Part shown: in pieces, positions 4,915 through 19,104 of the stretch | Position numbering within the stretch: the first letter of the stretch is position 1 | Layout: every line of letters starts with the position of its first letter | Assembly: GCA_023264995.1 (NCBI GenBank) | Contig: JAHFUR010000042.1 | Location: 1-33,873, forward strand | Reading direction: 5' to 3' | DNA: 33,873 bases | DNA from: Acidimicrobiia bacterium | Lineage (GTDB): Bacteria > Actinomycetota > Acidimicrobiia > Acidimicrobiales > AC-14 | Notes under the pieces: model-generated | Database searches by the model: none | Told to the model about the DNA's origin: nothing | The model's input: only the letters and a program-made list of their open reading frames with translations | Program-made: the position numbers and the translations under genes

Positions 4915-5715
4915 TCAGGCCTGCTCGGCCCAGACCTCGATGGTTTCCAGCACGGCGCCGCCGTAGGTCGTGACCATGGCCACGTCCAGGGCGTCACGGC
5001 CCCGGCCGATGACGACCCGGCCGGTGCGGGGGATGTTGTTGCGGGGGTCGAAGGTCCACCACCGGTCCCCCAGGTAGGCCTCGAACCAGGCGCAGAAGTC
5101 CATCGGCGCGCCGGTGGGCTCGACGCCGATGTCGGGGAGGTAGCCGAAGACGTAGCGGGCCGGGATGTTCATGCACCGGCAGAAGGTGAGCCCGAGCTGG
5201 GCGAAGTCGCGGCAGACCCCGACCCGCTTCTCCCAGATGTCGACCGCCGTGGTCGTCGGCGTGCTGGCGCCGGCCTGGAAGGTGACGTGCTCGTGCACCC
5301 AGTCGGCGATGGCCTGGACGCGGGCCCACCCCGGCTCGGTCGAGCCGAACAGCTCCCAGGCCTGGTCGTGGAGCAGGTCCGACAGGCAGAACCGGCTGGG
5401 CAGGAGGTAGACGAGGGCCTCGTTGGGCAGATCCTCGATCAGGAGCTGGGCCGCACCGGGCTCAGCCGGGTCGGTCCCGGCGGGGACGTCGACCATGGCG
5501 TCGTAGCGGACCAGGTTCTGGCCCTCGACCAGGCTCAGGCGGTCACAGACGTTGCCGTAGGCGTCGAGGTAGGTCGAGACCGGCAGCGCCGGCGTCGTGC
5601 TCCACGCGTGCGACAGCAGCCAGTGCGGCCCCTCCGGGCGGGGGCGGACCTGCCAGATGGTGGGCGTGGGCGCGGGAGCGCGGTAGCGGAACTCACAGCC
5701 CACGCGCACCTGCAC
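4915..5715 (-). CDS. Transglutaminase-like cysteine protease-fold protein
   Basis: 266 residues. It matches the COG1305-type transglutaminase-like family of ~270 residues. The N-terminus VQVRVGCEFRY aligns with the family's usual M-x-L/V-R-I-G-C-E start, so the GTG at 5715 is chosen over an upstream in-frame ATG at 5820; GGCAGGA lies 7 bases upstream. The catalytic cysteine is in GVCRDFAQLGLTFCRCMNIP, followed by ARYVFGYLPDIG and the TFDPRNNIPRTGRVVIGRG segment containing the acid. The position where many transglutaminase cores have the catalytic histidine reads DFCAWFEAYLGDRWW, with Cys instead of His. From memory, relatives also vary here. There is no signal peptide, so it is probably cytoplasmic. 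Such genes often sit beside alpha-E/circularly permuted ATP-grasp genes, which are not present here. The substrate is unknown. Confidence 0.8.
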   Translation of the reverse strand: MQVRVGCEFRYRAPAPTPTIWQVRPRPEGPHWLLSHAWSTTPALPVSTYLDAYGNVCDRLSLVEGQNLVRYDAMVDVPAGTDPAEPGAAQLLIEDLPNEALVYLLPSRFCLSDLLHDQAWELFGSTEPGWARVQAIADWVHEHVTFQAGASTPTTTAVDIWEKRVGVCRDFAQLGLTFCRCMNIPARYVFGYLPDIGVEPTGAPMDFCAWFEAYLGDRWWTFDPRNNIPRTGRVVIGRGRDALDVAMVTTYGGAVLETIEVWAEQA

Positions 5716-5782
5716 CCGGTGATCCTGCCCGCCCTTCGTGAACGGGACATGTCCGCAGGGGTGACGATCGCGTGAAGTGCGC

Positions 5783-5965
5783 CTAGACGGTGATCTCCAC
5801 CAGTTGCCGGGAGGCCTCACCCAGGTGCATGGCGCACGGGGCGGCGTTGGTGTGGGGCTCGGCCCGGAGGCAGAGCTGGGTGGCCCGCCGGGCCAGCTGT
5901 TCCTGGTCCGTGCCGGGCTCGGGGCTCCGAAGATCGACGGGTTCTTCCGATCGCAGTGCGCTCAT
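5783..5965 (-). CDS. Small hypothetical protein (60 aa)
   Basis: A short leftward frame with strongly GC3-biased codons encoding a 60-residue protein beginning [18 protein letters not shown] and ending [11 protein letters not shown] purine-rich GAGAGGG lies about 8 bases before the ATG at 5965. It fills the gap between the transglutaminase-like gene (same strand, 67 bases downstream) and the divergent glycosylase gene. It contains two cysteines (QLCLRAEP and APCAMHLG) but no motif I recognise. It may be co-transcribed with the transglutaminase-like gene. Confidence 0.5.
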
Positions 5966-6058
5966 GGCATCCACCCTCTCTTCCGAACGTGTCGACCGGA
6001 TTTTACGGCCGGCGCCCGACCACGTCGAACCGGGGCCCGGTCGACCTACGCTTCCCGC

Positions 6059-6892
6059 GTGCCCGAGATGCCCGAGATGCAGGCCCTGGCCGAGCGGTTG
6101 GAGGCTGCCGTCGGCGGGGCGACGTTCGAGGGGGCCACACCCCTGTCGTTCTCGGCGTTGAAGACGTACGCGCCGACGGCCGAGAGCCTGGCCGGGCGCC
6201 AGGTGGCCACTGTCGGTCGCCGGGGGAAGTACCTCGCCATCGACTTCGACGGTCCCCGCATCCTCGTCCACCTCTCCCAGGGAGGCCGGGTCGACGTGGA
6301 AAGCCCGCCCAAGAGCACGCGGCCGAAGTTCGGGGTCGTCCGCTTCCTGTTCGACGGTCGGCCCTCGGTGCTGGTCAAGGAGTTCGGCACCGAGCGCAAA
6401 GCGGGCTGGTGGGTGCTGGCCGAGGGCGACGACGGCCCGCTCAGCGGCCTCGGGCCGGAGCCGTTCTCCGACGAGTTCGAGGAGCTGGTCCTCCACGGCA
6501 CCGACGGCCGGCGGGTCCACACCCTGCTGCGCAAGCAGTCGACGGTGGCGGGGATCGGGCGGGGCTACACCGACGACAGCCTGCACCGGGCCCGGCTGTC
6601 GCCCTACGCGTCGCTCACGTCGCTCACGGCCGAGGAGCGCCGGCGCCTGGTCGACTCGGTGCGGGCGGTGCTGACCGAGGGGCTCGAGGTCGAGCGGGAC
6701 CGCACCGGCGGCCTCCCGACCAAGGTCGGCGACCACTGGGTGGTGCACAACCGCCACGGCACCCCGTGCCCGGTGTGCGGCGACGGCCTGCGCCGGGTGT
6801 CCTACGAGTCCTACGAGGTCACCTACTGCCCGGCGTGCCAGACCGGGGGAAAGATCCTGGCCGACCGCCGGATGTCACGCCTGGTTCGCTGA
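6059..6892 (+). CDS. mutM: Formamidopyrimidine-DNA glycosylase / endonuclease VIII family
   Basis: 277 residues. These enzymes excise oxidised bases using the N-terminal proline exposed after Met removal. The GTG at 6059 gives V-P-E-M-P-E-M-Q, aligning with the canonical MPELPEVE, so it is preferred over the ATG at 6068 even though that also reads M-P-E. Visible features are the beta-hairpin lysine in [13 protein letters not shown], the helix-two-turn-helix with [25 protein letters not shown], and a C-terminal zinc finger CPVC...CPAC. The finger ends [18 protein letters not shown]. The arginine that in E. coli Fpg lies just before the second CxxC pair is not at the equivalent position, which reads SYEVTYC. 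This suggests a family variant whose lesion preference may differ from classical Fpg. Its last 18 bases overlap the end of the convergent gene. Confidence 0.9.
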
Positions 6893-8779: not shown

Positions 8780-9070
8780 ATGACGACCCTCCCTGTCGCT
8801 GAAGCTCGGGCCAAGCTCTCTCGGTTGGTCGAGGAGGCCTCGAGCACGCACGCCCGCTTTGAGATCACGCGCAGCGGCCAGCGGGTGGCGGTGCTCCTCG
8901 GTGCGGACGACTACGACGCGCTGCGCGAAACGATCGCCGTCCTTGCCGACGTCGAGCTCCTGCGCGCCCATACCGAGGGTATGGCCGCACTCCAAGCCGG
9001 GGACAGCCTCGATGCCGAGGGTCTTGCCGGCGCCATGCGTGCAGCTGGGCGGCTGGCACCCTCGGCGTGA
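8780..9070 (+). CDS. Phd/YefM-family antitoxin (unit 2)
   Basis: 96 residues. The N-terminus TTLPVAEARAKLSRLVEEAS followed by RFEITRSGQRVAVLLGADDY is the Phd/YefM fold (PF02604 type), which binds operator DNA. The C-terminal half, TIAVLADVELLRAHTEGMAA onward, is the toxin-neutralising helix region. The start codon lies just after a TAGAAT -10-like element with no ribosome binding site, suggesting leaderless translation. The stop overlaps the downstream toxin start by 4 bases. It should neutralise the 9067-9342 toxin and autoregulate the unit, and could also counter the related toxin of unit 1. Confidence 0.9.
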   Translation: MTTLPVAEARAKLSRLVEEASSTHARFEITRSGQRVAVLLGADDYDALRETIAVLADVELLRAHTEGMAALQAGDSLDAEGLAGAMRAAGRLAPSA

Positions 9071-9370: not shown

Positions 9371-10099
9371 CTATGCGCTCGTGTGGGCCCGGGCCGGCGG
9401 TTCGAACTTGTACCCCAGGCCGCGGATGGTGACGATCGAGACCGGTACGGCCGGGTCGGCTTCCACCTTCGAACGCAGGCGCTTGATGTGCACGTCGAGC
9501 GTCTTGGTGTCGCCGACGTAGGACGGGCCCCAGATGCGGTCGATCAGGAGCTCCCGGGTCAGGACCCGGCCGGCGTTGCTGACCAGCGCCTCGAGCAGCT
9601 CGAACTCCTTGAGCGGGAGCTTGACGAGCTCGTTGCGCACGAAGACCTCGTGGCGTTCGACGTCGAGACGGACCGGGCCGACCTCGACGATGGCCACGCT
9701 GCCGGCCGGTTCGGGGCTGGGCGCCCGGCGGAGGGTGGCCCGGATGCGGGCCACCAGCTCGCGCATCCGGTAGGGCTTGGAGACGTAGTCATCGGCGCCG
9801 ACCTCCAGGCCAACGACGACATCGATCTCCGAGGTCCGGGCCGACACCATGATGATCGGGACCCGGGAGTGGGTGCGGATCTGGCGGCAGACCTCGATGC
9901 CCGACACCGACGGCAGCATGACGTCGAGCAGGACCAGGTCGGGGTGGACAGCGTCGAACCGCTTCATGGCCTCGACGCCGTCGCGGGCCACCTCCACCCG
10001 GAACCCCTCACGCTTCAGCCCGATGGACAGGGCCTCGACGAAGGACTCCTCGTCCTCGACCACCAACACGGTCGTCGTCGGCTCGCGCACCAGGCTCAT
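9371..10099 (-). CDS. regX3: Phosphate response regulator, RegX3/PhoB type
   Basis: 242 residues. The N-terminal receiver domain has the acidic pair in VLVVEDEES, the phospho-acceptor Asp ~59 in DLVLLDVMLP, Ser/Thr in MVSART and Lys ~108 in YVSKPYR. The C-terminal OmpR-type winged helix carries LPLKEFELLEALVSNAGRVL, RIWGPSYVGDTKTLDVHIKR and TIRGLGYKFEPP. The sequence is closest in style to RegX3 of the SenX3-RegX3 phosphate system. ATG at 10099 overlaps the phoU stop (ATGA), which decides the start against longer frames. It should bind the 11-bp direct repeats found at 11698-11719, 11751-11783 and 16108-16140. No intact histidine kinase gene lies nearby; only a kinase fragment remains at 16185-16409. 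Confidence 0.92.
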   Translation of the reverse strand: MSLVREPTTTVLVVEDEESFVEALSIGLKREGFRVEVARDGVEAMKRFDAVHPDLVLLDVMLPSVSGIEVCRQIRTHSRVPIIMVSARTSEIDVVVGLEVGADDYVSKPYRMRELVARIRATLRRAPSPEPAGSVAIVEVGPVRLDVERHEVFVRNELVKLPLKEFELLEALVSNAGRVLTRELLIDRIWGPSYVGDTKTLDVHIKRLRSKVEADPAVPVSIVTIRGLGYKFEPPARAHTSA

Positions 10100-10758
10100 C
10101 GGGCCTCGGCCGCCAGCGCGCTGGGGTCGCCGGTGACCAGGTAGCTGACCCGCTCGCCGATGATCACCGCGTGGTCGGCGATGCGTTCGAGGTTCCGGCC
10201 GGCGGCATGGGCGTGGAGCACAAGGCTGGGCGCACCCGGGCCGGTCTGGCTGAGGAGGTGGGCCACCAGCTGGCGCAGGGTGGCGTCGAGCACGCCGTCG
10301 CGGCTCTTCAGATCCGACGCGGCCACGAGGTCCTGGTCCACCCAAGCGGCCCGGGCCGACTGCAGCAACGTGAGGGCCAGGTCCCCCATCCGGCCGAGGA
10401 GGCCGATGGTGACCGGTTCGCGCTCCCAGTCGGCCAGTGACGACTTGGCCACGGCCACGGCCCGGTCACCGGTCTTCTCGTAGTCGGCCATGACCCGCAG
10501 GGCCGACATCAGGAAGCGGAGGTCGGTGGCCACCGGCGCCTGCTGGGCCACCAGGGCGTAGGCCCGTTCCTCGAGGGCGACGAACTGATTGTCGATGGCG
10601 TCGTCGCCGGCGATGACGGCGGCCGCGGCCGACGCATCGTCGCCCAGCAGGGCTCGCATGGCGTTGGCCACCGCCTGCTCGCCCAGGCGCCCGAGGGCGT
10701 CGACGTCGACCCGGAGCAAGTCCAGCGCCTCCTGGAACTGGCCCCGGACCGGCATCAT
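10096..10758 (-). CDS. phoU: Phosphate transport regulator PhoU
   Basis: 220 residues, the normal length for PhoU. Two three-helix repeats are visible, each with the metal-binding E-x-x-x-D type motif: [13 protein letters not shown] in the first half and [15 protein letters not shown] in the second. PhoU links the Pst transporter state to the phosphate kinase/regulator and restrains Pst activity when phosphate is plentiful. Two adjacent ATGs (10758 and 10755) overlap the pstB stop codon; the first is given. It overlaps regX3 by 4 bases, so pstB-phoU-regX3 form one translationally coupled operon. Confidence 0.93.
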
Positions 10759-11651
10759 CCGAACCGTCCGCTCACGTAGGCCTCCGTACGGGGATCGGAG
10801 GGGTTGGTGAACATCTTCTCCGTCCGGTCGAACTCCACCAGCAGGCCGGCCCGCCGGTCGGCCGTGGCGTCGACCTCGGCGGTGAAGAACGCCGTCATGT
10901 CGCTCACCCGGGCCGCCTGCTGCATGTTGTGGGTGACGATGACGATCGTGTAGTCGTCCTTCAGCTCCTGCATCAGGTCCTCGATGCGCAGCGTGGCCAC
11001 CGGGTCGAGGGCCGAGCACGGCTCGTCCATCAGGATCACGTCGGGCTGGGCGGCGATGGCCCGGGCGATGCAGAGGCGCTGCTGCTGGCCCCCCGACATC
11101 TGGGTGGCCGGCGTCCTCAGCCGGTCCTTTACTTCGTCCCACAGGGCGGCCCGGCGCAGGGCCTGCTCCACGCAGTCGTCCATGTCGACCTTCAACTTTG
11201 CGATCCGAGGGCCGAACGCCACGTTGTCGTAGATCGACTTCGGGAACGGGTTGGGGCGCTGGAACACCATCCCGATGAGCCGGCGGACGACCACCGGGTC
11301 GACGCCGGGACCGTAGAGGTCCTCGCCTTCGAAGCGCAGGCGGCCCTCGACCCGGACACCGGGGATCAGGTCGTGCATGCGGTTCAGGCTCCGCAGCAGC
11401 GTGGTCTTCCCGCAGCCCGACGGGCCGATGAACGCGGTGATCTGGCCCTTGCGCATGGTGAGGGTGACGTCGCGCACGGCACGGAACGCGCCGTAGAAGA
11501 TGCTCAGCTCCTCCAGCTCGAAGACGGGTGCTCCCGCGGTGGAAGTCTCCGTTCGGACCACCGGCGCGACCCGGGCCAGGACGGGCGGATGTTCGGGCGG
11601 TTCGGGGCCTTCAGTCAAGACCTCACTACCTAGGGCTGAGGAGTCGGTCAT
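10755..11651 (-). CDS. pstB: Phosphate ABC transporter ATPase PstB
   Basis: 298 residues. Walker [10 protein letters not shown] at ~76-84, Q-loop in [20 protein letters not shown], signature [16 protein letters not shown] and Walker [14 protein letters not shown], followed by the H-loop [13 protein letters not shown]. The [11 protein letters not shown] phrase is diagnostic of PstB. The start MTDSSALG at 11651 gives a ~45-residue lead before the first strand, longer than usual. A putative -10 (TACGTT, 11670-11665) lies just upstream, so the mRNA would have a very short leader. PstB energises phosphate uptake by PstSCA, which here is encoded on the opposite strand. Confidence 0.95.
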
Positions 11652-11697
11652 GGGTATCGGGGCGAACGTACCGAGCCTGGATGGCCACCACCCGTAC

Positions 11698-11719
11698 GCC
11701 GGGTGGACGGGAGGTGAAC
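11698..11719 (-). promoter_or_regulatory. Pho-box-like direct repeat upstream of pstB-phoU-regX3
   Basis: On the minus strand two adjacent 11-mers, GTTCACCTCCC and GTCCACCCGGC, match the actinobacterial PhoP/RegX3 direct-repeat unit (consensus about GTTCACCCGGC). Twenty-seven bases separate them from a TACGTT -10-like hexamer at 11670-11665. They fit an activator site for the leftward operon. Confidence 0.7.
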
Positions 11720-11750
11720 GCCGGACGTCATCCTCGTGGACACGCGTGCG

Positions 11751-11783
11751 TTTCATGGCCCGTTCATCTCCCGGCCACCTGTC
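11751..11783 (+). promoter_or_regulatory. Pho-box-like direct repeats upstream of pstS
   Basis: Three tandem 11-mers on the plus strand: TTTCATGGCCC, GTTCATCTCCC and GGCCACCTGTC, resembling GTTCACCCGGC. The gap to a TACGGT -10-like hexamer at 11811-11816 is 27 bases, the same as on the pstB side. A further isolated GTTCATCTCC occurs at 11824-11833 just before the pstS ribosome binding site. Confidence 0.65.
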
Positions 11784-11848
11784 GGCTACCACGTCGCAAG
11801 ACACGCTCTCTACGGTCCGCCTTGTTCATCTCCAAGGAGGCACGTCGC

Positions 11849-12952
11849 ATGCACCGCTGGTCCACCCGTTCCGCAGGTCTCACCGCCGCCCTGGCCGCGG
11901 TCGCCATGCTCTCCGGGGCGTGTGGGGGGAGCGACACCCCGGCGGCCTCGACCGCGACGACCCTGGCCGACAGCCCGACCACGGTCAAGGAGGCACCCCT
12001 CTCCGCCACGTTGAACGGGTCGGGCTCGACGTTCATGAAGGGCTTCGTCGAGGTAGCGATCGCCGGCTACAAGAAGGTGCAGCCGGGTGTCACCATCAAC
12101 TACGCCGGCGGCGGGTCGGGCACCGGCCGCACCAACCTGCAGGACGGCGTGGTCGACTACGCCGGCTCGGACAGCGCCATCGCTGACGCCGACAAGCCGA
12201 AGTACAAGGGTGAGGTGGTCTATGTCCCGACGGTGGCCGCCCCGATCACGGTGTCGTACAACCTGAGCGACGTGAAGGACCTCACCCTCGACGCCGACAC
12301 CATCGCCAAGATCTTCCAGCGCCAGGTCAAGAAGTGGGACGACCCGGCCATCGCTGCTCTCAACCCCGGCGTCAAGCTCCCGAGCACCGACATCGCCGTC
12401 GCCCACCGCTCCGACGGCTCCGGCACCACCGACAACTTCACCAAGTTCCTCGTCGCCGCGGCCCCGACGACCTGGACGCTCAAGTCCGGCTCCACCGTCG
12501 AGTGGCCGGCGGACACCCAGGCCGGCAACGGCAACGCCGGCGTGGCCCAGATCGTCAAGGGCACGGCCGGCGCCATCGGCTACGTCGACCTGTCCGACGC
12601 CAAGGCTTCGGGTCTCCAGTTCGCCAAGGTCAAGAACAAGGCCGGCAAGGCCATCGTGGCCAACCTGGCCGGCGCCACCGCGGCACTGGCCGGCACGCCG
12701 TTGAACGCCGACCTCACCTACAACCCGCTGAACGCCGACGGTGCCGACGCCTACCCGATCACGTCGCCGACCTGGATCCTCGTCTACAAGTCGCAGACCG
12801 ACAAGGCCAAGGGCGCGGCCATCAAGTCCTTCCTGCGGTACATGCTGACCGACGGCCAGAAGCTGGCCAACGACGTCGACTACGCCACGCTCCCGGCGGC
12901 GTTCCAGCAGAAGGCCATCAGCCTGATCGACAGCATCACGGTGGGGGCATAG
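11849..12952 (+). CDS. pstS: Phosphate-binding lipoprotein PstS
   Basis: 367 residues. A signal peptide, MHRWSTRSAGLTAALAAVAM, ends at LSGAC-GG, a lipobox-like site (with Ser rather than the usual Leu at -3), so the mature protein is probably a lipid-anchored lipoprotein. Phosphate-binding signatures are LNGSGSTFMKGFVE, INYAGGGSGTGRTNLQDG, DYAGSDSAI and HRSDGSGTTDNFTKFL. Start: AAGGAGG at 11834-11840 is 8 bases before the ATG. It captures phosphate outside the membrane and passes it to PstCA. It is first in a pstS-pstC-pstA operon (7-base gap to pstC) and lies behind the Pho-box-like repeats. Confidence 0.96.
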   Translation: MHRWSTRSAGLTAALAAVAMLSGACGGSDTPAASTATTLADSPTTVKEAPLSATLNGSGSTFMKGFVEVAIAGYKKVQPGVTINYAGGGSGTGRTNLQDGVVDYAGSDSAIADADKPKYKGEVVYVPTVAAPITVSYNLSDVKDLTLDADTIAKIFQRQVKKWDDPAIAALNPGVKLPSTDIAVAHRSDGSGTTDNFTKFLVAAAPTTWTLKSGSTVEWPADTQAGNGNAGVAQIVKGTAGAIGYVDLSDAKASGLQFAKVKNKAGKAIVANLAGATAALAGTPLNADLTYNPLNADGADAYPITSPTWILVYKSQTDKAKGAAIKSFLRYMLTDGQKLANDVDYATLPAAFQQKAISLIDSITVGA

Positions 12953-12959
12953 CCATCGG

Positions 12960-13931
12960 ATGACGCTCACCACCGCCCCGCCCCGCCCGCCGGCCCCCGG
13001 CCCGCTCGCCAGCCCCCAGCGGGCGGGCCGGGCGGACCGGGCGTTCCGCGCCCTGACCTGCGGCTGCGGGCTGGTGGTGCTCGTCATCCTCACGCTGATC
13101 GCCGTCTCGACGACGAGTAAGGCATGGGCCGCCTTCACCCACAATGGCTTCGAGTTCTTCACCTCCACCAGGTGGGCCCCGAGCGCCGGCGTGTTCGGCT
13201 CGTTGCCGTTCCTGTACGGCACCGTCATCACCGCGGTGATCGCCCTGGTCCTGGCCGTCCCGGTCAGCATCGGGCTGGCCCTGTTCCTCTCCGACATCGC
13301 TCCCCCGCGGCTGCGCCGGCCGGTCGGTTCCCTCGTCGACCTCCTCGCCGCCGTCCCGTCGGTGGTCTACGGCCTGTGGGGGGTGCTCGTCCTGGCCCCG
13401 TGGCTCATGGGCGTCTACCGCCGCATCGGCGACCTGACCTCCCCCATCCCGGTCCTGTCGCGCCTCTTCGCCGGCCCCTCGACGGGCCGAGGGCTGTTCA
13501 CCGCCGGGATCATCCTGGCCCTGATGGTGGTCCCCATCATCACCTCGATCACCCGTGAGGTGTTCGACACCGTGCCTGCCTCGGCCAAGGAGGCCGCCTA
13601 CGCCCTGGGCTCCACCCGGTGGGAGATGGTGCGGGCGTCGATCTTCCCCCACAGCCAGGCCGGCATGATCGGGGCGGTGATGCTCGGCCTCGGTCGGGCC
13701 ATGGGCGAGACCATCGCCGCCGCCCTGGTCATCGGATCCAGCCCGCAGATCTCGGCCAAGCTGTTCGGGTCGGGCGATTCGATGGCCGCGGTCATCGCCA
13801 ACCAGTTCGGGGAGTCCGATGGCCTCCACCGGTCGGCCCTCATCGGCCTCGGCGTCGAGCTGTTCGCCCTGACCATCGTGGTCAACATCGTGGCCCGCCT
13901 TGTCATCGCCCGGAACAAGCGCCGAGCATGA
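12960..13931 (+). CDS. pstC: Phosphate ABC transporter permease PstC
   Basis: 323 residues. A Pro-rich cytoplasmic lead is followed by about six transmembrane helices, the first at GLVVLVILTLIAVSTTS. The ABC-permease EAA loop is visible as PASAKEAAYALGSTRWEMVR, followed by MLGLGRAMGETIAAALVIG, characteristic of PstC. It forms the membrane channel with PstA and couples to PstB. The ATG at 12960 follows the pstS stop by 7 bases. The 3' end overlaps pstA by 4 bases (ATGA). Confidence 0.95.
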   Translation: MTLTTAPPRPPAPGPLASPQRAGRADRAFRALTCGCGLVVLVILTLIAVSTTSKAWAAFTHNGFEFFTSTRWAPSAGVFGSLPFLYGTVITAVIALVLAVPVSIGLALFLSDIAPPRLRRPVGSLVDLLAAVPSVVYGLWGVLVLAPWLMGVYRRIGDLTSPIPVLSRLFAGPSTGRGLFTAGIILALMVVPIITSITREVFDTVPASAKEAAYALGSTRWEMVRASIFPHSQAGMIGAVMLGLGRAMGETIAAALVIGSSPQISAKLFGSGDSMAAVIANQFGESDGLHRSALIGLGVELFALTIVVNIVARLVIARNKRRA

Positions 13932-14788
13932 GCGCCCTCCAGGGCTCGATCAGCCCCGCTCGCCGGTTCCGCAACCGGGCGGCCCTCGGTTCGATCTGGC
14001 TGTGCGTCGTGGTGGCCGCGGTGCCCCTCATCTTCGTCATGACGTACCTGGTGCAGAAGGGCGCCGGCGTCATCAGCTGGGACTTCCTGACCAAGGACAT
14101 CCCGATCAGCTCTCGCGTCCGGGGGCCGGGCATGGGGCCGGCGGTGGTCGGGACCCTGCTGGCCACGGGCGCGGCCACGCTCATGGCCGTCCCCCTCGGC
14201 GTGCTGGCCGCCGTCTACCTCAACGAGTACGGCCGCAGCGGGCGGCTCCCGGCGGTCATCCGGTTCCTCTCCGACATCATGACCGGCGTGCCGTCCATCG
14301 TCATGGGCCTGTTCATCTATACCCTCTGGGTCCTGCGCTTCGGCTACAGCGCGTTCGCCGGCGGCCTGGCCCTGGGCTGCCTGATGCTGCCGATCGTGAT
14401 CCGCTCGGCGGAGACGGCCCTGACCTTGGTGCCGAACGAGCTGCGCGAAGCCAGCGCCGCCCTCGGCGCCCGCCGGTCGCGGACCATCCTGACCGTGGTC
14501 ATCCCGGCCGCCCTGTCCGGCATCGTCAGCGGCGTCCTGCTGGCCGTGGCCCGCGCCGCCGGCGAGACGGCGCCCCTGCTGTTCACCATCGGCACCGTGA
14601 CCTCGGTGAACCGCCACATCTTCAGCGGCACCAACACCGCCCTGTCGGCGCAGATCTTCGGCAACGCCGGCCAGCCCTACGAAGGGGCGATCGCCCGGGC
14701 GTGGGGGGCGGCGCTCACCCTCATCGTGCTCGTCTTCGTGCTCACGGCCGTCGCCCGTCTGATCGCCCGGCGCTTCACCGTCCGCTAG
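13928..14788 (+). CDS. pstA: Phosphate ABC transporter permease PstA
   Basis: 286 residues with six hydrophobic helices. Characteristic segments: SDIMTGVPSIVMGLFIYTLW, the EAA loop LVPNELREASAALGARRSRT and VARAAGETAPLLFTIG, the PstA hallmark. The start at 13928 overlaps the pstC stop, which excludes longer upstream frames. It is the last gene of the rightward pst operon. The usual downstream pstB is missing here because pstB lies in the divergent operon. A palindrome at 14800-14847 follows. Confidence 0.95.
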   Translation: MSALQGSISPARRFRNRAALGSIWLCVVVAAVPLIFVMTYLVQKGAGVISWDFLTKDIPISSRVRGPGMGPAVVGTLLATGAATLMAVPLGVLAAVYLNEYGRSGRLPAVIRFLSDIMTGVPSIVMGLFIYTLWVLRFGYSAFAGGLALGCLMLPIVIRSAETALTLVPNELREASAALGARRSRTILTVVIPAALSGIVSGVLLAVARAAGETAPLLFTIGTVTSVNRHIFSGTNTALSAQIFGNAGQPYEGAIARAWGAALTLIVLVFVLTAVARLIARRFTVR

Positions 14789-14867: not shown

Positions 14868-16016
14868 TTAGGGCTGGACCATGCGCTCCCAGCTGAACGG
14901 TCCGAACGACGTGTCAGTCGTGGCCAGGTGGGCCCCCGGGCTGATCGTCAGGCGGAGCCACTCGAGCGGGAAAGTGCTGCCATGGACGACGATGCGGTGG
15001 AAGTTGGCCACGTCGTAGCCAGGGTGGACGAAGTTGAGCGGGTCGGAGGCGGCCAGCGGGTTGTCCGAGCGGTAGACGTGGGAGTCGCCGTTGAACATCA
15101 GCACCGGCTTGGCCAACGCCGACGTGTGCGAGGCCACACTCTGGACGAACGGCTCGAAGGCGGCCTGGTGAGCCGGGCCCTTCTCGTTGTCCCACATGTC
15201 GGCCTGGGCGCCGATGACCACCGCGTCGACCCCGTCGGCGGCGGCCCGGGCGAAGGCGATGTCGAGCCAGCGCAGGTCGGCCGCCGTCCGCTCGTTGATC
15301 TCCTGGATCTGCGCCGCCGACTTGGTCGGCGCGCCGTACCAGACGTCGTTGTCGTTGTTCGACCCGCCGGGAAGGTTGATGGTGACGAACAAGACCTTGG
15401 ACTGCTCCCACATCACGTTCTCGACGTACTTGGCGTCGGCCGGGTGAGCCCGGTCGGGGTGACGGGCCTGAGAGATGACCTGGCGCTTCCGCTCGCCGAG
15501 GGTCACGCCCGGGACCGGGAAGAAGATCGACCGGATGAGGGCCAGGTTGGCAACCGGGTCGCCCTTGGCGTAGTCGACGGGGTTCCCGCTGCCGTCCACG
15601 ACGTAGTCGATCTGCTGGGTGGCGGCGTTGTAGGCACCACCGCCCTCGCCGGCCTTGTTGCAGTCGGTCCACTCGTTGTCGCCCGGTGTGTAGACCACCG
15701 GGTCCTTGTACTCGGTCCACAGGTCGAACACGCCCTGGTCGTACGCCTGCGTGCAGTACTGCTTGCCCGAGTGGATGTCGCCCACGTGTAGGACGAGGCG
15801 GACCTTCGGGTCGGCGTTGATCGAGTCGATGAACCCAGGCAGGGCCTGGAACTGGGCGGTGTCCGTCGGCGTCGTCCCGTAGGGCGCGTCGCCGTAGACC
15901 GCCATCGTGAACGTGTTGGCGGCGTCGGCGTTGAGGGGGTTCCCGTCGGCGGCGAGCGCCGGCACGGTGGGCAACAGCGCCATGGCTGCGGCCGCGAATA
16001 CGAGCGTCTTCTTCAA
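14868..16016 (-). CDS. Secreted metallophosphoesterase
   Basis: 382 residues from TTG at 16016, chosen because GGAGGAAA sits 4 bases upstream and a clean signal peptide follows ([20 protein letters not shown], cleavage near ALA-AD). Metal-binding motifs of the calcineurin-like phosphoesterase fold appear in order: AVYGDAPYG (~40-47), LHVGDIHSG (~77-84), [11 protein letters not shown] (~109-119), [11 protein letters not shown], and FNGDSHVYR near the C-terminus. It probably releases phosphate from extracellular esters. A Pho-box-like repeat at 16108-16140 and the neighbouring pst genes support phosphate control. The same frame stays open upstream to 16409 through a histidine-kinase fragment; that is read-through of a remnant, not part of this protein. 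Confidence 0.85.
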
Positions 16017-16140: not shown

Positions 16141-16184
16141 ACCTCCTGTCGGGTGGGCGAAGCTTGCGAACCGGCTCGGGGGAC

Positions 16185-16409
16185 AGCCCGGGGGAGACGG
16201 AGGGTGAAAGTCGAGCCCTCCCCCTCGTGCGACTCGACGGACACATCGCCGCCATGGTTGGTGGCCACGTGGCGGACGATCGACAGCCCCAGTCCAGTGC
16301 CTCCGGTGTCGCGGCTGCGGGCCCGGTCGACCCGGTAGAAGCGCTCGAAGATCCGCTCCAGGTCGTCGCGGGGGATACCGATGCCGCTGTCGCGGACCAC
16401 GATCTCCAC
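16185..16409 (-). pseudogene. senX3: Remnant of a SenX3-type sensor histidine kinase (C-terminal ATPase tail)
   Basis: About 75 codons encode the end of a histidine-kinase catalytic domain: G1 box [17 protein letters not shown] box [14 protein letters not shown]2 box [20 protein letters not shown] and the terminal STFTLRLP strand. The wording is that of SenX3, the RegX3 kinase. Upstream the frame meets TGA within a few codons, and no N-box, phospho-accepting His region, HAMP or membrane helices occur in any frame. Downstream there is no stop before the metallophosphoesterase, so the frame runs into it. The piece has no start, no sensor and no phospho-acceptor, so it cannot work as a kinase. 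Together with the unassigned bases around it, it accounts for the gene-free stretch 16017-16523. Confidence 0.8.
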
Positions 16410-16523: not shown

Positions 16524-16748
16524 TCACGAGAACTTCATGGCGGGGCCTCCCCCGTCCCCGAGGAGCGAGCAGGCGTCCCACAGGTCCAAGTCGTCGCCGA
16601 CGACGATCCGGAGGGGCGCCGGGGCGGCGGGATGGGCGCGCCGGGCCATGGCGAACGCTTCTGCGCACTCGACACACAGCGCGGGGGCACGAGTCGGGCC
16701 AGCGCAGGCCGGGCAGAGGGACAGGCGTCGAAGATCATTGATGACCAT
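16524..16748 (-). CDS. Small zinc-ribbon-like protein (74 aa)
   Basis: 74 residues from ATG at 16748. Two CxxC pairs, CPAC and CVEC separated by nine residues, suggest a small zinc ribbon. The rest contains APLRIVVGDDLDLWDACSLL and a C-terminal GPAMKFS. Codons are strongly GC3-biased from the ATG onward. The frame can be extended to a GTG at 16835 that overlaps the parA stop, but the extra 29 codons use rarer codons (ATA, GTT, CTT), so the shorter form is preferred. Placed directly downstream of the parA gene on the same strand, it may belong to the same operon. The function is unknown. Confidence 0.55.
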   Translation of the reverse strand: MVINDLRRLSLCPACAGPTRAPALCVECAEAFAMARRAHPAAPAPLRIVVGDDLDLWDACSLLGDGGGPAMKFS

Positions 16749-16825
16749 GCCCGGCCGACGGTACGGCCCGAAGATGTCGGCCAGCCGACCGTGAGCTTGC
16801 CGCCGGGTAGCCGAACGAAGAACCG

Positions 16826-17569
16826 TTATGTCCACAATCTCGCGGCGATGTCCGCCCAGAGCTGCTTGAACGCCGCCGCCGCGTTCGACGTCGGGTCGTA
16901 GGACGCCACGGGCGCGCGCTCGGGCCCCATGCGCTCGATGGTGCTGGCCGCGGGGATGGCGGTGGGGAGCAGATCCGGCCACTCGGCCCGCAGCTCAGCC
17001 ATGGTCTCCCGGTGGAGCCGCTTCCGACCGTCAACCATCGAGAAATAGGGCAGGAGCGCCGGCGGGTGCTCCTGGGTGGCGAGAAAGGTCGAGAGCTGCA
17101 GCAGGGTCCGTGACGACAGTGTGGTCGGGATCACCGGCACCAGCAGCGACCCGGCAGCGCCGAACACGCTCTCGCTGGCCAGCGAGATGCTCGGTGGGCA
17201 GTCGAGGAGGGCCACGTCGTAGCGGTCGGCGACGCCGGCGAGCAGCGCGGCCAGACGCTCGATGGGGCGCTTGCTCCCATCGAGGTGAAGGTCCAGGTTG
17301 CGAAGGGAGAAGTCGGCCGGGACGACATGGACACCTGGGAGGTCGCTGGCCCGGATGTGCTCGACGAGGTCGCCCTTGGCGCTCACCAGGCGCTGCGTCC
17401 CACCCTTGACCTTGGGCCGGATGCGGAAGAAGTAGGTCGCCGCCCCCTGTGGGTCGAGGTCCCAGACCAGGACGCGACCGCCGGAGGCCGCAGCTTCGCG
17501 GGCCAGGTTCACCGCGGAGGTCGTCTTCCCGACGCCTCCCTTGATGCTGTAGGTCGCCAGGATCCTCAC
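16826..17569 (-). CDS. ParA/MinD-family partition ATPase
   Basis: 247 residues. Deviant Walker A SIKGGVGKTTSAVNLA with the signature lysine, Walker A' VWDLDPQGAATYFF and Walker B DVALLDCPPSIS, then the ParA-typical C-terminus VASYDPTSNAAAAFKQLWAD. Such ATPases dimerise on ATP, coat the nucleoid and move or space cargo (plasmids, chromosome origins, carboxysomes, chemoreceptors). No helix-turn-helix precedes the ATPase and no parB or parS-like repeats are visible, so a plasmid or chromosome partition role is unlikely. The GTG start overlaps the end of the upstream CHAD gene by 4 bases (GTGA), implying coupled synthesis and a shared job. Confidence 0.92.
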   Translation of the reverse strand: MRILATYSIKGGVGKTTSAVNLAREAAASGGRVLVWDLDPQGAATYFFRIRPKVKGGTQRLVSAKGDLVEHIRASDLPGVHVVPADFSLRNLDLHLDGSKRPIERLAALLAGVADRYDVALLDCPPSISLASESVFGAAGSLLVPVIPTTLSSRTLLQLSTFLATQEHPPALLPYFSMVDGRKRLHRETMAELRAEWPDLLPTAIPAASTIERMGPERAPVASYDPTSNAAAAFKQLWADIAARLWT

Positions 17570-19104
17570 CGCACGGCCTTGATCATCTCGCCAAAGGCCC
17601 GCGCCGTCTGCTTGGTGTCATAGGCCGCGAACCGGTCGGCGAAGGCGGCGCGCGCCGCCCTTCGCCGGCGGTCAAAGACCTCGGTCAGTCGGCCCATGGC
17701 CACCAGGGTGTCGGCCGTGACCCCGCTGGACGCGAGCAGCTCGTGGCTCATGGCGGTGAGCTGCGTGGTGTGGACCTCCGTGTCCTGGAACTCCCCCAGG
17801 TTGTCCTGCAACATCTTCAGGCGTTGGACGAACGGCTTCCTGGTCGCCGGGGGGAGCAAGCCACCGAAGCACTCGAGAAGGTAGCGAAGGCGCTTGGCAT
17901 CCTTGCGGAGCTCGTGCAGCTCCTCGGCCGGGCTTGCCGGCCCGATCCCTCGGCCGTGCATGAGCAACCGGTCCTGAGCCCCGTTGATAGTTGCGACCAC
18001 CACCGGGCCGAGCGCCCGGTCGCCCTTCGTGGCGATGGCACTCGCCGCTTTCCGTCCGGTCTTCGCCTTCGGGCCGTCGAGCCACGCTCGCCAGGCGGTC
18101 ATGAGCCCGAGGTACCGAGGCGACTGGAGGTGCTCGGCAAGGGCAAGATGTTCGGCGGCCCGCTGGCTGGCGATGTGGGCGACGACCGGCGCCAGCGCGC
18201 GCACCGACTCCGGGTCGAGCGGCGCGACATAGCCCGGCCACTCGATCAGGTAGACATCGAGGTCACGCAACGGGCTGGTGATCGTGCCGAGCCACCGCAA
18301 TTCGGCCCGGAAGTGGTCACGCCCGGCCGACGGCAGCACTTGCTTGGCGTGGGAGAGGACCGAACGAGACCGGCGGACGGCGATGCGTAGGTCGTGGAGG
18401 AACTCGGGGTCGATGTCGTCGATCGTGCCCTGGCGGTTGGCGTCCACCGTGACCGCGAGGTTCGACAGGACCCGCCGGAAGCCGGCGCTGACCGGCTCGG
18501 CCGGGTCGAGGGCCACCGACGGCGAGTCGATGAACCCCCGCAGGTCGACCCCCGCCTCCGCGGCCGCCAGATCGAGGACATCGCCTTCCGTCCGGACCAG
18601 GCCGACCGAGGCCAGGAGATCCTCCGCCTGGCGGACGGCGCGCGGGTACCCCTCGAAGGGGATGACCTCGGCGGCGCAAGGCCGCGAGGTCACCACCTCC
18701 TCGTACAGGACGACGCCGACGATGGCCTTGCCGGTGGCGTCACGCCGCACGGCCTCGGCGTGGCGGGCCCGGACGCCCACGATCGGGACGAGAGCGCGGA
18801 TATCGAGCAGCGCCGCCAGCCGGTCGCGCACGGGGCCGGCGGGGAGGTCGCCCGCGACTCGGGGCGCACGCGCAACCACCACCTGCGCCGGCGCAGGGCC
18901 GCCCCCCGTGAGGATCAAGGTGGGCCCGCCGGCGCCGCCGCGAACCTCGAGTCGGACGCCGCCGGCGTGGAGACGACCGTCGAACGTGTCGAGCAGGGTC
19001 CGCTCGACGGCACGGAACGGGCCGACCTCGAAACCGGCGCCCTCCAGCGCCGAGGCCAAGTGCGGCGCCGGTGGGGTCCCACCGCTGTAGGTCACGGTGT
19101 CCAT
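17566..19104 (-). CDS. CHAD-domain protein with degenerate CYTH-like N-terminus
   Basis: 512 residues. The C-terminal ~300 residues form a CHAD domain, a helical bundle with conserved His and basic motifs: FLHDLRIAVRRSRSVLSHAK around residue 235, and ELHELRKDAKRLRYLLECFG around 400. CHAD domains bind polyphosphate and can target granules. The N-terminal ~180 residues resemble a CYTH (triphosphate tunnel) fold (ERTLLDTFDGRLHAGGVRLE; IVGVRARHAEAVRRDATGKA) but lack the ExExK signature, so they are probably non-catalytic. No signal peptide, so cytoplasmic. The ATG at 19104 has only a distant GGAGGG. The stop overlaps the ParA start by 4 bases. The setting beside Pst, PhoU and PhoX-like genes fits a role in polyphosphate handling. 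Confidence 0.85.
   Translation of the reverse strand: MDTVTYSGGTPPAPHLASALEGAGFEVGPFRAVERTLLDTFDGRLHAGGVRLEVRGGAGGPTLILTGGGPAPAQVVVARAPRVAGDLPAGPVRDRLAALLDIRALVPIVGVRARHAEAVRRDATGKAIVGVVLYEEVVTSRPCAAEVIPFEGYPRAVRQAEDLLASVGLVRTEGDVLDLAAAEAGVDLRGFIDSPSVALDPAEPVSAGFRRVLSNLAVTVDANRQGTIDDIDPEFLHDLRIAVRRSRSVLSHAKQVLPSAGRDHFRAELRWLGTITSPLRDLDVYLIEWPGYVAPLDPESVRALAPVVAHIASQRAAEHLALAEHLQSPRYLGLMTAWRAWLDGPKAKTGRKAASAIATKGDRALGPVVVATINGAQDRLLMHGRGIGPASPAEELHELRKDAKRLRYLLECFGGLLPPATRKPFVQRLKMLQDNLGEFQDTEVHTTQLTAMSHELLASSGVTADTLVAMGRLTEVFDRRRRAARAAFADRFAAYDTKQTARAFGEMIKAVR

Follow-up and report, generated by a model that had tools for sequence, protein, structure and literature searches.

A conserved CHAD–ParA gene pair as a candidate system for positioning polyphosphate granules in bacteria

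ParA-type positioning in general is covered by several papers (PMC10241942, PMC12204374, PMC9178275), the available parts of which mention neither polyphosphate nor CHAD. Among the described systems, McdA/McdB stands closest to the gene pair considered here: it joins a ParA-type ATPase to a cargo-binding partner, has no ParB or parS and acts on a cytoplasmic body. The pair, a CHAD protein gene followed by a gene for a ParA-family ATPase, lies in a 33,873-nucleotide stretch of Acidimicrobiia bacterium DNA (GCA_023264995.1, contig JAHFUR010000042.1), hereafter the window. It differs from McdA/McdB in its presumed cargo, polyphosphate (polyP) granules, in its partner, which is CHAD and not McdB, and in its ATPase, which by sequence is nearer to Soj (E 4e-21) than to McdA (2e-11) in the PDB. 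Pfam gave no match to McdB or carboxysome genes among 30 open reading frames (ORFs) or ORF parts of the window, where the neighbour of ParA is CHAD. The window ParA shares the ATPase fold and motifs with ParABS systems; unlike in those, no ParB or parS was found with the pair, and the ATPase falls on a separate family branch.

PolyP granules are ordered in the cells of several species, and AlgP of Pseudomonas aeruginosa is the sole spacing factor tabulated in the accessible part of a 2025 review (PMC13052382), which describes the proteins ordering polyP in Caulobacter as not identified and leaves the use of energy open. AlgP affects the even spacing of polyP granules, as is proposed here for the pair; according to the available text it is a histone H1-like protein and a proposed tether, unlike the window ParA, and not an ATPase of this kind (PMC9239181, PMC13052382). 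Adjacency of the genes has been printed before. A parA gene beside CYTH-CHAD and ppk genes was reported in Acidithiobacillus in 2019 (PMC6416229) and 2024 (PMC10892726), the likeness to the window pair being one of gene type and adjacency. In the parts available, these papers treat cAMP, polyP metabolism or copper resistance, regard ParA as a chromosome or plasmid partition protein and do not suggest granule positioning. A literature search, with bioRxiv and most subscription journals outside its reach, found no proposal of a ParA for polyP granules. Thus the functional reading of the pair is new within the literature searched, and the remark of an earlier note on this DNA that it knew of no such described system holds for function and fails for adjacency.

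In the window, the CHAD protein gene occupies positions 17566 to 19104 of the minus strand and encodes 512 residues comprising a degenerate TTM/CYTH-like N-terminal domain and a CHAD domain (Pfam PF05235, E=7.9e-55). The ParA-family gene follows on the same strand (16826 to 17569, GTG start), its product having 247 residues, a match to AAA_31 (E=1e-29) and no N-terminal (helix-turn-helix) extension. The CHAD stop overlaps the GTG of ParA within GTGA at 17566 to 17569 (minus strand), as the earlier note had read it; translational coupling of the two genes is suggested by these four nucleotides common to both ORFs. Its statement that ParB and parS are absent also held: Pfam showed no ParB family member among the 30 ORFs or ORF parts, a set covering part of all possible ORFs, and no parS was present at up to three mismatches to the consensus. 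Twenty NCBIfam models matched the window ParA, none at its cut-off.

The CHAD–ParA association is a conserved pair found in several phyla. One tally covers 116 loci from Actinomycetota, alpha- and gammaproteobacteria, Desulfobacterales and Bacteroidota, and 88 of them have a same-strand CHAD gene directly before ParA, vs. none of 68 canonical ParA loci; linkage in the alphaproteobacterial, Paracoccus and added Actinomycetota loci of this tally was known before their inclusion. Its rules differ slightly from those used below (41 linked gammaproteobacterial loci, not 42; 3/4 added Actinomycetota loci, not 4/4). All p-values given here overstate independence, since the loci are related to one another. 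Among the matches listed for 99 genomes of the window's order (its own included), 18 ParAs are close to that of the window, being 36-81% identical to it along most of their length, the background being mostly at 27-36% with a few partial matches apart. Fourteen of the 18 have CHAD directly upstream on the same strand; by the gene calls the gaps range from -4 to +19 nucleotides, with the 4-nucleotide overlap in ten and values of -1, 2, 4 and 19 in the remainder. CHAD does not adjoin the other four (L045, L047, L048 and L049). Around two of these, L045 and L048, the neighbourhood is otherwise conserved, with nine gene clusters in common. A further genome (G089, locus L027) carries CHAD 116 nucleotides upstream of a ParA with a mere 31% identity to that of the window, bringing the pair to 15/99 genomes. 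In G002, from the window's genus, the fetched 10 kb hold only a 3' remnant of ParA and the zinc-ribbon ORF described below.

Outside the order, the pair was followed on plasmids and in genomes. A tblastn search of the window ParA against 72,556 plasmid records gave its best row, among the matches listed, in Halomonas; Paracoccus supplied six of the best ten, all six with CHAD just upstream. The gene order is CHAD-ParA-CYTH-NUDIX with close or overlapping ends in Paracoccus aestuarii and CHAD-ParA-CYTH in P. marcusii. No CHAD was present in 6 kb at the other end of the circular record for Halomonas PA16-9 (ParA identity 48%), or among the annotated genes on both sides of the Pontibacter ParA (42%). 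A cross-phylum scan of genome contigs yielded at least 80 ParA loci, CHAD being directly upstream in seven of the closest 12 listed vs. none of the remaining 68 listed (Fisher p=2.5e-7). The seven comprise two gammaproteobacteria, Rhodothalassium, three Actinomycetota (Prauserella included) and one member of Desulfobacterales. Of the five unlinked loci, L072 and L073 are cut near the ParA start, L066 has 1.2 kb upstream, and CHAD truly does not adjoin ParA in L064 and L071. Profile scores in 369 gammaproteobacterial genomes were bimodal, with 58 matches at 187-386 bits and the others listed at 158 or below. CHAD adjoins ParA in 42 of the 57 family loci fetched and also in the 58th (L063), and in none of three lower-scoring loci fetched alongside. 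Three of the 42 partners (L213, L214, L221) are short CHAD-only proteins recovered by Pfam and a second profile. In Bacteroidota, family ParAs occur in 59/247 genomes (60 matches) and CHAD adjoins in 19 of 26 loci examined, namely 18/20 of L274-L293 plus L309; it does not at L279/L317, L289/L318 and L312-L316. Alphaproteobacteria contain the family in 5/240 genomes (three linked) and Actinomycetota at large in 10/246 (six linked, two of them already counted in other samples). Pairs also lie on contigs of 2-5 Mb (G580, G355, G1076). Loci L225 and L227 share flanking gene clusters with L205, L207 and L208, with CHAD gone and ParA diverged, an apparent loss of the adaptor.

The CHAD partner has a structurally solved relative. 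Among solved structures, those nearest to the CHAD alignment come from Chlorobaculum (Chlorobium) tepidum (E=3.6e-89 and 1.8e-89), entry 6QVA containing bound polyP. In the printed alignment, the solved protein and the CHAD gene product of genome G580 are identical over 315 residues, so that G580 is very probably C. tepidum. In this genome ppk1, a 273-residue ORF, CHAD and ParA follow one another on one strand, CHAD ending two nucleotides before the family ParA. Hence one ParA-linked CHAD, very probably that of C. tepidum, is a proven polyP binder (6QV7/6QVA). The C. tepidum protein (CtCHAD; 6QV7, 6QVA, 3E0S) resembles the window protein in carrying the C-terminal tail described below (7.9 bits) and in the position of its gene directly upstream of a family ParA. 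Its structure is that of an isolated CHAD half, unlike the full window protein, and the accessible text of the paper has no mention of ParA (PMC6537752). According to that text, CtCHAD binds polyP and not nucleic acid, and mutation of His253, Arg256, Arg260, Arg296 or Arg418/Tyr419 lowers its affinity for polyP (PMC6537752). By alignment, the equivalents in the window are H237, R240, R244, R280, R407 and Y408, all within the CHAD domain (17761 to 18450, minus strand), and the six positions are kept in 82-87 of 88 ParA-linked CHADs. The view of the earlier note that this CHAD is a polyP binder is thereby strengthened.

The other parts of the CHAD protein also set linked members apart. An AlphaFold2 model of the window protein (pLDDT 82.5, seven-row alignment) has an N-terminal domain with strands followed by the CHAD helices. 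Foldseek searches with it returned CtCHAD-polyP (6QVA) strongly and full-length YgiF at 2.7e-8; thiamine triphosphatase and SaTTM were weak, YgiF being the sole TTM match below E 0.001, with low to moderate TM scores. ExExK is the catalytic motif of CYTH/TTM enzymes. It was not found near the N-terminus of the window protein. Among full-length CHADs, 2 of 80 linked proteins retain it, the other 78 being without it, vs. 23 of 33 unlinked (p=4e-14); a looser search window additionally flags L278, excluded from the count of two. Most linked CHADs end in a tail of roughly R-Q-x2-A-R-x2-F-x2-R-F-x2-F-x8-F-R-x-L-F, at 17578 to 17670 (minus strand) in the window, which is a candidate contact with ParA. 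A profile trained on gammaproteobacterial tails alone (threshold 5 bits or more) detected it in 40/47 linked non-gammaproteobacterial CHADs vs. 6/45 unlinked (p=2.6e-12). Five of these six unlinked proteins come from genomes also holding a family ParA (G099, G104, G154, G568, G615), and in the sixth (G074) none was found. The unlinked CHADs of both tests are 41 hand-picked, non-random loci plus five added because their genomes contain a family ParA; the tail could be scored at 45 of the 46 ends counted. For L039 the called CHAD start lay too far upstream, and the sequence was shortened by hand.

The window-type ParA belongs to a distinct family apart from canonical ParAs. A quick maximum-likelihood tree of 111 ParAs groups the 65 CHAD-linked rows without exception on one side, together with 22 unlinked and three unknown rows, and the branch separating this side from the canonical ParAs has a length of 1.74 and an SH-aLRT support of 100, a value less reliable with long branches. 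The CHAD label changes eight times on the tree vs. 33 in shuffles (0/500 as low). Placements of L027 and L049 are unsure because two long branches meet there. The tree includes 17 of the 68 canonical genome-contig loci, excludes L073 and L050, is without L229 (a split ParA), and four rows with less than 1.6 kb upstream of ParA were scored as unknown. The deviant Walker A marks of ParA/MinD ATPases are KGGVGKT with the signature lysine and the Walker A' and Walker B aspartates; this set is present in the CHAD-linked ParAs, with K10, K15, T16, D37 and D123 kept in 65/65 and D39 in 64/65. R182, the counterpart in the alignment of the "DGRT" arginine of Thermus Soj, which we take to have a DNA-binding role, is kept in 59/65. 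Residues R49, R90, E133, R154, H186, E212, M214, R218 and W238 are mostly common to CHAD-linked ParAs and absent or rare in the 21 canonical ParAs whose residues were listed (R154 in four). A ParA 39% identical to that of the window lies on Marinobacter nauticus pMAQU02 (L058, 5001-5747), no more than 5 kb away from phbB and acetyl-CoA genes, and possibly belongs to a system for another storage body.

The pairing and its link to polyphosphate are well supported. In gammaproteobacteria ppk1 (PF02503) is present in 39/42 pair-bearing genomes, that of L063 included, vs. 179/327 others (p=4.7e-7, relatedness not corrected for). The co-occurrence with ppk that the earlier note had suggested checking thus stands for this class. 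PPK1, PPK2 or PPX is encoded within the fetched 6 kb at nine of 42 linked gammaproteobacterial loci (L173, L174, L177, L187, L191, L195, L200, L206, L212) and at none of 71 canonical ParA loci, for which flanking sequence of up to 7 kb was covered. Some lineages have ppk1, a free-standing CYTH gene or a Nudix gene in line with the pair. The order at L063 is ppk1-CHAD-ParA, then ppk2 on the opposite strand; at L327 (Actinomycetota), where the genes occupy one strand, ppk1-CHAD-ParA is followed by an ORF that matches CYTH as well as NUDIX. That ORF (5556-6623, plus strand) is likely a fusion of the CYTH and NUDIX genes that are separate in Paracoccus. Near the order-level pairs, stand-alone CYTH genes occur at four loci, Nudix genes at four and SixA-like genes at two (named by eye). 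At L216 (G266) the family ParA starts about 14 nucleotides after PPK1 with no CHAD between, the sole CHAD match of that genome being poor and with internal stops.

Since a polyP binder is joined to a positioning-type ATPase, and since its enzyme motif is mostly lost, a tail is mostly present and polyP genes lie near some of the pairs, granule positioning or inheritance is the simplest account. The pair is judged a fairly probable ATP-driven system placing or segregating polyP granules, with CHAD as the cargo adaptor. The CHAD protein would dock on polyP via its CHAD domain, as in vitro for the C. tepidum protein and as the conserved residues here suggest, and the N-terminal TTM-like domain, its catalytic motif lost, may act as a binding or scaffold domain. 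ParA, judging by its family, would be an ATP-dependent dimer on nucleoid DNA, and the tight overlap suggests co-translation of the two genes. The granule-bound CHAD protein would contact ParA and stimulate its ATPase, perhaps via the C-terminal tail; a ParA gradient would then space granules along the nucleoid so that each daughter cell gets a share, as McdA/McdB do for carboxysomes. The ParA-CHAD contact, the tail as its site, DNA binding and granule movement are steps that we infer. We also lean, somewhat less firmly, towards an ancient and widespread ATP-driven system dedicated to polyP granule positioning and inheritance, with a catalytically dead TTM-CHAD protein serving a ParA family of its own as cargo adaptor.

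Several observations weigh against granule positioning by the pair. CHAD does not adjoin 15/57 gammaproteobacterial family ParAs; nine of these 15 genomes hold CHAD elsewhere (one a poor match with internal stops) and in six none was found anywhere. The same is true of 6/12 other genomes with an unlinked family ParA and of two of three further ones (G105 and G106; G104 has one). The ParA family therefore probably has further partners besides CHAD. The tail is missing from 7/47 linked non-gammaproteobacterial CHADs (L027, L036, L044, L046, L065, L069, L074); where an unlinked family ParA and a scorable CHAD elsewhere share a genome, it is present in 4/13 (G104, G154, G568, G615) and absent in nine (G185, G252, G264, G369, G375, G469, G600, G732, G972). 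For these reasons it may mark a CHAD subfamily and not an interface. No polyP enzyme is encoded in the fetched 6 kb of 33/42 linked gammaproteobacterial loci. In the window's order ppk1 is present in 90/99 genomes, so its co-occurrence with the pair is uninformative there. The window pair itself lies by pst genes and not by ppk1, near which another CHAD of the same genome is encoded, and the literature search found no experiment on any ParA of the family.

Other roles for the pair were weighed on the same evidence. ParA might localise or switch PPK1/PPK2 via CHAD, setting where and how many granules form instead of moving finished ones. Such a ParA would be comparable to BcsQ, which goes with cellulose synthase, or to the flagellar FlhG/FleN. 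The ppk1, ppk2 and ppx neighbours agree with it, as do L216, where the family ParA comes right after PPK1 and CHAD does not adjoin, and the CYTH and Nudix genes beside some pairs; the 33 gammaproteobacterial loci without a nearby polyP enzyme speak against it, and the constant partner is a polyP binder, not a kinase. This control of synthesis is possible, though rather unlikely. It is more doubtful still that the pair acts by tethering or spreading granules, with no ATP-driven movement, or couples the polyP state to stress or cell-cycle control. The activity of the family ParA is so far predicted, and AlgP has been proposed as a granule-spacing tether in P. aeruginosa (PMC9239181, available text); however, the signature lysine, the P-loop lysine and the Walker B aspartate are kept in 65/65 CHAD-linked ParAs, and because a passive tether would need none of these ATPase residues it is disfavoured.

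That the protein is an ordinary plasmid or chromosome partition ParA, beside CHAD by chance, is highly improbable. The Paracoccus pairs found are on plasmids, which would suit it, but ParB is in 0/30 window ORFs or parts and no parS was found, and on this ground partition is refuted. The separate ParA family with its long stem and the recurrence of the pair in several phyla, on large contigs among others, add to this. The reading of the earlier note would have been refuted by a pairing confined to this genome or lying near ParB/parS. The pair proved instead to be conserved in several phyla, to co-occur with ppk1 in gammaproteobacteria and to stand in line with polyP genes in some lineages, which rules out a peculiarity of one genome.

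The window pair sits in a pst/phoU block, with PstS, PstC and PstA above NCBIfam equivalog cut-offs. The genes are pstS (11849 to 12952, plus strand; matched on the longer frame 11528-12952), pstC (12960 to 13931, plus) and pstA (13928 to 14788, plus; matched on the longer frame 13619-14788), the pstS and pstA starts being those of the gene calls. Pfam identified an OmpR/PhoB-type response regulator (9371 to 10099), phoU (10096 to 10758) and an ABC ATPase in the pstB position (10755 to 11561), all on the minus strand. A putative Metallophos-type phosphoesterase (14868 to 15980, minus strand) matched weakly, just above the cut-off, and its start is uncertain. The phosphate-uptake block described in the earlier note is thus borne out, the phosphoesterase weakly. 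A Phd/YefM-type antitoxin gene lies at 8780-9070 (plus strand). The host genome (3.8 Mb, 81 contigs) has a second CHAD gene on another contig (G000:C31:26096-29162), about 2 kb after PPK1 on the same strand and with a different C-terminal end; a similar ppk1-CHAD arrangement recurs in relatives.

Downstream of ParA, at 16524 to 16748 of the minus strand, an ORF of 74 residues encodes a putative zinc ribbon with two CxxC pairs. It has no Pfam or NCBIfam match in its frame and none in PADLOC; the two genomes of the same genus within the set of 99 each have a homologue, and it was found in this genus only. Of 71 loci examined, just two have a small ORF with four cysteines after ParA, which rules it out as a general third component. 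The accessory role assigned to it in the earlier note is thus confined to the genus at most. Between this ORF and the phosphoesterase, at 16150-16409 (minus strand), a piece of HATPase_c (from model position 39 on) looks like the remnant of a truncated histidine kinase. A defence system was also ruled out: PADLOC gave a 36-residue P-loop match for ParA and nothing for CHAD or the small ORF.

If the granule-positioning reading is true, the pair would be a ParA system dedicated to a store of inorganic polymer and would give a role to CHAD proteins without the enzyme motif. The pair is a genetically small and concrete candidate, and because its partner has a known polyP-bound structure, the question can be put to a direct test in Chlorobaculum, in Paracoccus or in a gammaproteobacterium.

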